Positions 25,134-55,349 of a stretch of DNA of 64,000 nt are shown one piece after another (the first letter of the stretch is position 1; the number at the start of each line of letters is the position of its first letter). The position numbers and the translations under genes are program-made. The notes under the pieces are model-generated. The model ran no database searches. It saw only the letters and a program-made list of their open reading frames with translations, and had not been told where the DNA came from. The DNA comes from Paratrimastix pyriformis (taxonomy: Eukaryota; Preaxostyla; Paratrimastigidae), in contig JAPMOS010000007.1 in NCBI GenBank assembly GCA_027972325.1, forward strand, positions 372,501 to 436,500, written 5' to 3'.

Positions 25134-25754
25134 TCCCCTGCCGCGTCCACCTACTTCTGTGTGTGACTAGGATTTGGGATTGTGGTAGTAGAACGGAATC
25201 CGTAGTCATAGTGACTCTTAAGACGGATTTCCGCTCGTTTCTAACCCCTCCCCCTCCCTCCCTGCCTCTATTTTCTCTGTTACCTCCTCCTCCTCCATCT
25301 TCCCGTTGTCGTCCCTTCCGCACGGACCCACCCTTGTTCTTGATATTCGGCCCCTCCTCTTTCTTGTATCCCGCGCAGGCGCGGTTTCTCTCCCCGCTTT
25401 CCACATTAAGTCCCGGAATCATCGATCATCCTCTTCCGTCTTCGCCAGGGTTCGGCCAAACGGACTCCTTTTCACTTTCATTGCGCATTCACGGATACTC
25501 ACCCGAGGACTCGCATATATGCTAGACTCCTCCATCCATGAATAAAGATTATGTGGGGGGAACCCGAGAGTTGAACGTATCCAGGTCGCTGCTTTTCCGC
25601 GTCGCGGCCTCGATCGGCACGGCACAGTCATCCTCCCCGCAGAGGTCCTCACGACCCATTTCATCCTGTAAATGATAATTTTGCCGCGCCGCTTTGGGAC
25701 CTATATAAGCAGGGCAATCGGGACACAAGCCAACAAAGAGCGAAAACCTGCAAA
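25134..25754. promoter_or_regulatory. Intergenic region with TATA box for the Gly-rich gene
   Basis: 620 bp. The distal part is pyrimidine-rich. TATATAAG lies at 25703-25710, about 45 bp before the ATG at 25755, in a short AT-rich interval; this is the clearest TATA box in the window and suggests a strongly or conditionally expressed gene. No gene seen in the region. Confidence 0.6.
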
Positions 25755-27558
25755 ATGAGGCTCAGAAGAGTACTCGTCTTGCTGGCCCTCTTGTCATTGG
25801 TCTGTGCTATTGTGTCTAACCACCAACGATCACAACAACTCTTTTTGCAGACTGTCGGCCAGACATGGTCCGGCGTTCAGTGCACAGTGGGCCCTGATGG
25901 CAAGCAGCATTGCATGCGGTGCAAGGATGGCGTCTGCGAAGAAATGACGTTGGACGATCAAGACCAGGCGCTCTTCGACGTGCTGGTGACACCCCGCGGG
26001 CGTGGGCGTGGGCCCCAACGGAGCTACAAATACGTCCCTGGTGGTAGCTTTGGCCCTAGTGGTGGCGGTGGTCCGTCGCTCGCTTTGAACGTCTCGTGTC
26101 TCATGCGCATCCGCACCGCTTAGGGTCGGGCGCCGGTTCTGGCTTCGGCGGCGGCGGGCCCGGTGGAGGGTTCGGCGGTGGTCTGTGCAACACATTTGCG
26201 GCGAATTGCCTCAACACATTGATAAATAGGCTCGGGCGCCGGCTCTGGTTTCGGTGGCGGGCCTGGCGGCGGGTTCGGTGGCGGTCCGTTCCTGCATCTC
26301 CCCGGACGCCATCATTCATCATTTTTCCCCTTTCACGCAGGTTCGGGCGCCGGCTCCGGCTTCGGTGGCGGCGGGCCTGGCGGTGGGTTCGGTGGCGGTC
26401 TGACCGTTTCCCCTTCGCGCCTTCGATCCGATCTTCCCTCTCCAGGTTCGGGTGCCGGCTCTGGCTTCGGCGGCGGGCCCGGTGGCGGGTTCGGCGGCGG
26501 TCTGCTCGCAGCCATTTGGCAGGTTTCTCTGACCTTTGGCGGCTTTAGGCTCGGGCGCCGGCTCCGGCTTCGGTGGTGGCGGGCCCGGGGGCGGGTTCGG
26601 CGGCGGTTCGGGCGCCGGCTCGGGCTTCGGCGGCGGCCCCGGGGGCGGGTTCGGCGGCGGTCCGCAGCACGTTTTCTCCTCTTCTGCTGACCGCTCCTTT
26701 CGCCCAGGTTCGGGTGCCGGCTCGGGCTTCGGTGGTGGCGGGCCCGGTGGCGGGTTCGGTGGCGGTCCGTCTCTTCCCACCCGTCTCATCTCAACTCACA
26801 ACCTCTCCCGCAGGCTCTGGCGCCGGCTCCGGCTTCGGCGGTGGGCCCGGTGGCGGGTTCGGTGGCGGTCCGCCTGCCCCCCCCATTTGATCCCGTGATC
26901 ATTTTTTGGACCATCTGTTCATTCGCTCGCCATCAGGTTCGGGTGCCGGCTCGGGCTTTGGCGGCGGCGGGCCCGGCGGCGGGTTCGGTGGCGGTCCGCC
27001 TTGCGCTCTTCACACCGTCACTCACGATTCATGATGTCCTTGGATCCCCCCGCTCCTGTTCGTGCCAGGCTCGGGCGCCGGCTCCGGCTTCGGCGGTGGG
27101 CCCGGTGGCGGGTTCGGTGGCGGTCCGTTCTCCCCCTGCCCCTGCCCTGCGCCATCGCCCTCATTGGACCGCCTTCATTTTCTCTTTCTCCGCTCAGGGT
27201 CGGGTGCCGGCTCGGGCTTCGGCGGCGGCGGGCCTGGCGGCGGGTTCGGTGGCGGTCCGTCCGGCGACTGTTCCGATGGCTGTCATGCATACTCATCACT
27301 CCCCTCCCACCTCAGGTTCCGGTGCCGGCTCTGGCTTCGGCGGCGGGCCCGGTGGCGGGTTCGGTGGCGGTCTGCATCTCCTCCGTTCTGCCGCCACTAT
27401 GGCTGACGATGCCTTTGCCCGTTGCCTCTTTCTTGGTCGCAGGCTCCGGTGCAGGCTCGGGCTTCGGCGGCGGCGGGCCCGGCGGCGGGTTCGGTGGCGG
27501 CAGCGGTGCCGGCTCGGGCTTCGGCGGCGGCTACCTGAGCGACGAGGAGGAGTACTAA
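25755..27558 (+). CDS. Secreted Gly-rich repeat protein on a symmetric mini-exon array
   Basis: I do not recognise a family. Exon 1 (25755-26070) gives a signal peptide (MRLRRVLVLLALLSLVCA), a small Cys module (C-x9-C-x2-C-x4-C around VQCTVGPDGKQHCMRCKDGV), a basic stretch and the first Gly-rich residues. A 39-nt in-frame segment inside it (starting GTGTCT, ending TTGCAG at 25849) may be an optional intron. Then come 13 copies of GSGAGSGFGGG(G)PGGGFGG on phase 1-1 exons: 26124-26180, 26230-26283, 26341-26397, 26446-26499, 26549-26659 (two copies fused), 26708-26764, 26814-26867, 26937-26993, 27069-27122, 27198-27254, 27316-27369 and 27443-27558. Unit length alternates 57, 54, 57, 54 throughout. 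The last exon ends GGYLSDEEEY. Likely an extracellular structural, adhesive or silk-like protein; that role is inference from composition and signal peptide. Confidence 0.85.
26124..27500 (+). repeat. Exonic 57/54-nt repeat array with unrelated introns
   Basis: Thirteen coding units, nearly identical, separated by introns of 48-75 bp (48, 49, 49, 49, 48, 57, 61, 69, 73, 75, 75) whose sequences show no similarity to one another. Every intron starts GTCCG or GTCTG and ends AG. The alternation 57/54 (GGGGP versus GGGP) implies that a two-exon unit was the duplicating module. Confidence 0.9.
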
Positions 27559-27765
27559 ACCAACGATCGCGCCCCCCTCGATCCAACACTCCTTCACTCG
27601 ATGATCCAAAACTCGGTCGATTCATCAATGACGTCTCTCGGGGGGGGGGGGGGGGGGGGGGGGGTCGGGAGCAATAGTGCCGTCGAACAAAAATCGATGA
27701 CGGTGGGGGAGGGGACGGGCACGCTGGCTCCTCCTCCTCCGGGGGGGTAGCGGTAGCCGCCGTTT
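27559..27765. other. Convergent spacer with 25-nt G run
   Basis: Short spacer between the Gly-rich gene and the F-box gene, dominated by a 25-nt G run (27640-27664). No gene seen. Confidence 0.7.

Positions 27766-32089: not shown

Positions 32090-34040
<1,951 letters not shown>

Positions 34041-48248: not shown

Positions 48249-55349
<7,101 letters not shown>

Follow-up and report, generated by a model that had tools for sequence, protein, structure and literature searches.

The 5' end of the U1 snRNA and the 5' splice sites of Paratrimastix pyriformis, an anaerobic flagellate, appear, on sequence grounds, to have changed together, because the GTCYG donors of its introns and the 5' ends of its U1 genes match each other. 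The window analysed here is the whole stretch of 64,000 nucleotides from contig JAPMOS010000007.1, and it carries a gene for a Gly-rich repeat protein in which such donors are the rule. The explanation as a whole, in which old duplicate units are selected at the protein level, lie on phase-1 mini-exons, and are joined through an altered U1 matched to GTCYG donors, is given a probability of about 0.86. The wider claim that P. pyriformis has wholly replaced the ancestral U1/donor pairing, with a two-letter change in all U1 genes and GTCYG donors genome-wide, is considered likely.

The donors of the Gly-rich gene are GTCCG in 8/12 introns and GTCTG in 4/12, a feature that the earlier note on this stretch did not mention (Table 1). 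Across the 12 aligned junctions, donor conservation ends abruptly at +5/+6, and the acceptor side keeps YAG alone. The neighbouring gene codes for glucose-6-phosphate isomerase (PGI; 32090..34040, + strand), and its five introns were placed by homology. A 531-residue EukProt protein has the entry name GAFH01001260.1, and GAFH01000000 is the 454 transcriptome of Trimastix (now Paratrimastix) pyriformis (PMC3596361). The spliced PGI product contains this cDNA-derived protein exactly, at 531/531 residues and across all five junctions, and four of the five cDNA-proven donors are GTCYG, the exception being GTTGC. The EF2 gene has the donors GTTTG, GTTTG, GTCTG, GTCAT, GTCCG, and GTCTG (3/6 GTCYG), and its spliced product of 833 amino acids aligns without gaps to the EF2 of a relative, with 751/833 residues identical. 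Taken together, PGI and EF2 show GTCYG in 7/11 donors and other letters in 4/11. By eye, the LUC7 gene has three GTCTG introns and one uncertain GTCTC, and a WBP4-like gene has one GTCCG intron; both genes stand outside the donor counts, which were also made without the CCT chaperonin genes located in the genome. Two traits of U2-type introns are present, namely GT-AG ends (12/12 in the Gly-rich gene) and removal from the mRNA (the PGI introns are absent from the cDNA-derived protein), and a third, a donor complementary to the canonical U1 (GTRAG or GTATG type), is absent. Separately, proteins from public assemblies that are 90% and 88% (EF2) and 78% (PGI) identical point to unsequenced close relatives.

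Table 1. Gene-model features of the Gly-rich gene and introns of the PGI gene (window coordinates)
Feature	Position	Strand	Details
TATA-like box (candidate)	25702..25709	+	TATATAAG; 53 bp before ATG; seen in sequence
Exon 1a	25755..25799	+	start codon, hydrophobic putative signal-peptide core; from translation, signal peptide by eye
Probable intron	25800..25850	+	GTCTGT donor, CTAAC branch-like motif, TTTTTGCAG acceptor
Exon 1b	25851..26070	+	four-Cys module, RGRGRG stretch, SYKYVPGG
Intron 1	26071..26123	+	GTCCG donor, 53 bp
Unit 1	26124..26180	+	57 nt
Intron 2	26181..26229	+	GTCTG donor, 49 bp
Unit 2	26230..26283	+	54 nt
Intron 3	26284..26340	+	GTCCG donor, 57 bp
Unit 3	26341..26397	+	57 nt
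Intron 4	26398..26445	+	GTCTG donor, 48 bp
Unit 4	26446..26499	+	54 nt
Intron 5	26500..26548	+	GTCTG donor, 49 bp
Units 5 and 6, fused in one exon	26549..26659	+	unit 5 26549-26605, 57 nt; unit 6 26606-26659, 54 nt
Intron 6	26660..26707	+	GTCCG donor, 48 bp
Unit 7	26708..26764	+	57 nt
Intron 7	26765..26813	+	GTCCG donor, 49 bp
Unit 8	26814..26867	+	54 nt
Intron 8	26868..26936	+	GTCCG donor, 69 bp
Unit 9	26937..26993	+	57 nt
Intron 9	26994..27068	+	GTCCG donor, 75 bp
Unit 10	27069..27122	+	54 nt
Intron 10	27123..27197	+	GTCCG donor, 75 bp
Unit 11	27198..27254	+	57 nt
Intron 11	27255..27315	+	GTCCG donor, 61 bp
Unit 12	27316..27369	+	54 nt
Intron 12	27370..27442	+	GTCTG donor, 73 bp
Terminal exon	27443..27558	+	unit 13 (27443-27499, 57 nt) fused to partial unit 14 and C-terminus
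PGI intron	32429..32478	+	GTCCG donor
PGI intron	32552..32603	+	GTCTG donor
PGI intron	32813..32868	+	GTTGC donor
PGI intron	33230..33313	+	GTCCG donor
PGI intron	33601..33662	+	GTCTG donor

Held-out introns were drawn from the window and 21 stretches of 10 kb after removal of PGI, EF2, and the Gly-rich gene. The EM donor model had a flat start, and candidate introns were scored by coding potential only, to avoid circularity, with a codon model built from PGI and EF2 codons only; a self-trained codon model drifted toward GC-rich repeats and was discarded. In 43 held-out candidate introns, all of them predicted and some of them low in score and probably false, the model arrived at C at +3 (0.81) and G at +5 (0.81), with +4 divided between T (0.54) and C (0.38). 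GTCYG accounts for 24/43 of these donors, or 20/43 when donors are picked by coding score alone, compared with a background of 5.3% of GT 5-mers, and GTAAG, GTGAG, and GTATG are found in 0/43 under either way of picking. Decoy dinucleotides put in place of GT reached 1.28-2.73 bits (GC 2.73, TT 2.31) versus 3.43 for GT; since the decoys gained information too, the EM result alone is not decisive. A scan without a coding model over 264 kb (the window and 20 of the stretches) placed GTCTG at the top, with 51 occurrences versus 20.5 expected (z 6.6), and gave no enrichment of GTCCG (25 versus 21.2 expected). The minority donor GTTGC of the third PGI intron came second in the 264-kb scan (z 2.4).

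The 56.06-Mb genome assembly was searched with the Rfam U1 model (RF00003), which gave 8 full-length matches (positions 1-166) on 8 contigs. Their scores of 50.8-60.2 bits (E 3.7e-13 to 2.0e-10) lie below the gathering score of 69.5 bits, and the same search gives weak sub-threshold matches in 9/14 prokaryote control genomes. The 5' end is AUACAGACC, not AUACUUACC, in 8/8 of the U1 genes found, and the first 45 nt, common to all 8, start AUACAGACCUUG, compared with AUACUUACCUGG in the Rfam consensus. Three aligned copies keep GAUCA in stem-loop I, the AUAAU...UGG Sm-type site, the 3' stem-loop, and the cloverleaf. The upstream regions contain CCCATAA at -59/-60 (8/8 genes), CTCAA at -31/-32 (7/8), and AAATTC directly before the RNA (7/8), which are presumably snRNA promoter elements. 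The exact canonical pattern ATACTTACCT-N8..35-GATCA occurs 0 times in the assembly, and the altered pattern ATACAGACCT-N8..35-GATCA occurs in 10 places, 8 of which are the U1 genes. In U6, ACAGAGA is kept in all four copies found. The best zf-U1 match in the genome (contig C86:24809-24916) looks like WBP4 and not like U1-C, and so was set aside as evidence of U1-C. U1-associated proteins are reported to be almost missing from the metamonads studied (PMC6679479).

Of the two changed letters of U1, position 5 lies opposite +4 of the donor and position 6 opposite +3, as A5-U(+4) and G6-C(+3). AAGGUCUGUAU is the reverse complement of AUACAGACCUU, and thus GTCTGT pairs perfectly with the altered U1; GTTTG forms a G-U wobble, and GTCCG leaves one A-C mismatch at A5, which is a counterpoint because GTCCG is the commoner donor of the Gly-rich gene. 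Predicted pairing is stronger with the altered than with the canonical U1 for 23 of 24 donors (the 12 of the Gly-rich gene and those of its probable extra intron, PGI, and EF2), with means of -8.4 and -3.6 kcal/mol, respectively, and the exception, GTTGC, is slightly better paired with the canonical U1. This complementarity suggests that the altered U1 would pair with the donors in vivo. In the mechanism proposed, the introns would be removed by a major-type spliceosome that carries the altered instead of the canonical U1, with G6 pairing with C, or in wobble with U, at +3, and A5 with U at +4. As these letters face +3 and +4, the donor rule would be G|GTCYG, not GTRAG or GTATG, and every repeat unit would end in such a signal. 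The two changed positions are those that are pseudouridylated in humans and yeast; here they are A and G.

A different account holds the altered U1 genes to be irrelevant: a canonical U1 would be missing from the assembly, or U6 or proteins alone would define the donors, and GTCYG would have come from GC pressure or from something else. In favour of this account, the assembly may not be complete, and GTCYG keeps the +5 G, so that with U at +4 the letters UGU (+4 to +6) could pair with ACA of U6. Against it, the change is present in all 8 U1 genes together with the identical first 45 nt and the common upstream elements, and the exact canonical pattern is missing throughout the assembly. Moreover, the changed letters face just +3 and +4, where the donors depart from GTAAG, and GC pressure predicts no such match. 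This account is regarded as highly improbable, and the matched change of U1 and donors is preferred.

The preferred reading has likenesses to several known systems. In U1 snRNA suppressor experiments, engineered U1 is matched to altered 5' splice sites, and in Paratrimastix, too, U1 changes that face the donor would compensate for donor changes. In contrast to these experiments, the change in Paratrimastix appears natural and extends to each of the 8 U1 genes found, as well as to the donors of many genes, with no engineered extra copy. Among metamonads, two reports give A, U, and G at +3 to +5 (GTATG) for donors of the oxymonad Streblomastix, a member of Preaxostyla (PMC1501061), and ACUUAC as the start of Giardia U1 (PMC3510501). 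Paratrimastix resembles both in being a metamonad with U2-type introns and a +5 G, and resembles Streblomastix in the +4 U, whereas C at +3 and the altered U1 5' end set it apart. In the light of these two reports, the Paratrimastix state looks derived, and it probably arose from GTATG by an A-to-C change at +3. The diplonemid S. specki is described as having an alternative U1 with a 5' C stretch complementary to unusual donors, beside a conventional U1 (PMC12621601). In both organisms a naturally occurring U1 has an unusual 5' end that matches unusual donors, whereas in Paratrimastix the searches turned up no conventional U1 and the consensus of the donors has itself shifted. In Fritillaria borealis introns break the GT/AG rules, and a duplication of U2AF together with m6A is proposed (PMC13326754). 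In both cases intron ends have changed across a lineage along with the spliceosome, whereas Paratrimastix keeps GT-AG and has changed U1 letters. No prior report of the altered U1 or of GTCYG donors was found in the literature covered, which was mostly without subscription papers and without preprints, and 'snRNA' and 'spliceosom' are both absent from the main text of the P. pyriformis genome paper (PMC10703272).

The repeat array of the Gly-rich gene (26124-27499) consists of 13 units that alternate strictly between 57 and 54 nt, and the unit coordinates bear out the earlier note's claim of alternation without exception. If lengths were independent and equally likely, the chance of this order would be 2/2^13 = 0.0002. 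The unit peptide is GSGAGSGFGGG(G)PGGGFGG, in which one Gly codon is the sole length difference. The internal repeat exons are all phase 1-1 with lengths in multiples of 3, and the 12 introns are phase 1 and 48-75 bp long, in agreement with the symmetric phase-1 mini-exons and short introns first described. The fused exon 26549-26659 is as intron loss predicts, and a second one, 27443-27558, had been overlooked; the fused-unit junctions read GGCG|GTTCGG. The terminal exon ends in acidic YLSDEEEY, with the stop codon at 27556-27558. What had been taken for a single first exon (25755-26070) is probably two exons, since 25800-25850, previously missed, is probably a further intron: it has 51 bp with a GC content of 0.43, is AT-richer than its flanks, and has a T-rich CAG end. 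Its removal leaves the reading frame open, but as it is itself open in frame, retention is likewise possible. The splicing of the Gly-rich gene as laid out in Table 1 is predicted from these signals. A run of 25 G lies shortly 3' of the gene (27640-27664), and a 107-bp GT repeat (54355-54461) is one of many simple repeats in the window.

Exons and introns of the array have diverged in different ways. Compared with shuffles, the intron bodies (intron 1 entered one base too long) have a mean local z of 0.08 over 66 pairs, i.e., no excess likeness, so the stated lack of common sequence holds beyond the single most alike pair, introns 3 and 10 (z 4.2). The exons, reported as almost identical, are identical as protein; as DNA they have a mean identity of 89.3% (range 82.5-98.1%). 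Between unit pairs, codon positions 1 and 2 each differ at 0/1425 sites and position 3 at 459/1425 (32%). The mean pairwise codon identity is 0.682 versus 0.508 for synonymous shuffles within units; the third positions have diverged and are not fully randomised. Comparing exon with intron divergence, which had been advised, therefore yields protein-identical exons with synonymous drift beside unrelated introns. Because the differences between units are purely synonymous, the exons are best seen as held alike by selection on the protein, one of the two causes offered earlier; gene conversion as the sole cause is ruled out by the same fact. With third positions so far diverged, unrelated introns are no surprise. 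The units would thus be old duplicates in which purifying selection keeps the protein identical, and third positions and intron bodies would have drifted.

Homogenisation of the exons by gene conversion or recent unequal crossing-over, with the introns escaping, would account for the codon identity above that of shuffles and for units 8 and 10, which match at 17/18 codons compared. However, such a process would wipe out synonymous differences too, and 32% of third positions differ. In repeat codon columns 12 and 16, GGG is used in 12/13 and 13/13 units, although both GGC and GGT are in use at the other Gly columns. A GGG column in 13/13 units beside fully mixed columns would fit a site-specific constraint better than conversion, which on balance is unlikely. 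GGG in these columns may avoid cryptic GTCYG or GTTTG donors inside the exons. Alternatively, an intronless array might have acquired its introns in separate events at one and the same G|GT point, instead of duplicating them along with the exons, as the intron bodies have no common sequence and the junctions in the fused exons offer a ready insertion point. This would demand some twelve parallel gains, all in a single phase and at a single position, with no recognisable donor element, and drift following old duplication is the simpler account of unrelated introns; independent gain is thus improbable.

Under old duplication with drift, the ancestor of the array may have had two exons, as the earlier note proposed with its paired-exon module. 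The codons lend no support to this module: identity is 0.664 and 0.696 within the odd and even classes and 0.685 between them (permutation p 0.68). As odd and even units have no separate codon history, nothing but the extra Gly codon, and hence length parity, points to such an ancestor. The earlier idea that the symmetric exons serve regulated skipping, giving a ladder of repeat lengths, accords with the phase (1-1) of every internal repeat exon and with its length, which is divisible by 3. The donors, on the other hand, are all GTCYG, with no graded strength besides C or T at +4, and the shortness of the introns (48-75 bp) suggests that splice sites are recognised across the intron, a mode that would favour retention over skipping. 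If retained, 9/12 introns have no in-frame stop, and 4 of these 9 are also a multiple of 3. A skipping ladder is unlikely.

The spliced protein consists of a hydrophobic N-terminus, the four-Cys module, an Arg/Gly stretch, the Gly-rich repeat, and the acidic end. It is probably a small, secreted Gly/Ser/Pro-rich repeat protein, as first thought, the hydrophobic N-terminus having been judged by eye. Pfam gave no match even at E<=10 for the spliced form with the repeat shortened, and two sub-threshold matches (PF22859, E 0.016; PF06123, E 0.081) for the unspliced N-terminus. Residues 1-105 found none at E<=10 among 418 candidates, transcript-derived homologues included, which is consistent with the view of a low-complexity protein of no known family. 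The proposed search for paralogues, with the N-terminal module as query, found no second copy in the genome (best other match E 0.54), and Rfam and tRNA scans of the 64-kb window found nothing. Elastin and fibrillar collagen genes have many short symmetric exons of one phase, Gly/Pro-rich repeats, and fused exons from intron loss, and the Gly-rich gene is alike in these respects. It is unlike them in its strict 57/54 alternation, in phase or unit sizes, and in coding for what would be a secreted protein of a single cell, and neither Pfam nor the search with residues 1-105 gave homology to a known matrix family (collagen- or elastin-like). The spider flagelliform silk gene has Gly-rich repeats on near-identical exons with introns homogenised too; the Gly-rich gene has similar repeats and exons, whereas its introns are unrelated and its exons differ synonymously. 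The best guess, with about even odds, is that the protein would be secreted and serve in a matrix, a coat, or adhesion.

Few stretches of RNA in eukaryotes are as constant as the 5' end of U1, and altering it should break all introns simultaneously. Where U1 and donors have apparently moved together, as in this lineage, the route of such a change becomes open to testing, and possible traces of this route are intermediate donors in oxymonads or Trimastix relatives, or a period with two U1 types. If the reading is true, the U1 uridine pair that is made pseudouridine elsewhere is dispensable, and the compensatory-mutation experiment has been done naturally. Gene predictors gain the right donor model for the clade, GTCYG. 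The mini-exon gene, with 12 near-identical exons that each end in the new donor, would be a convenient reporter.
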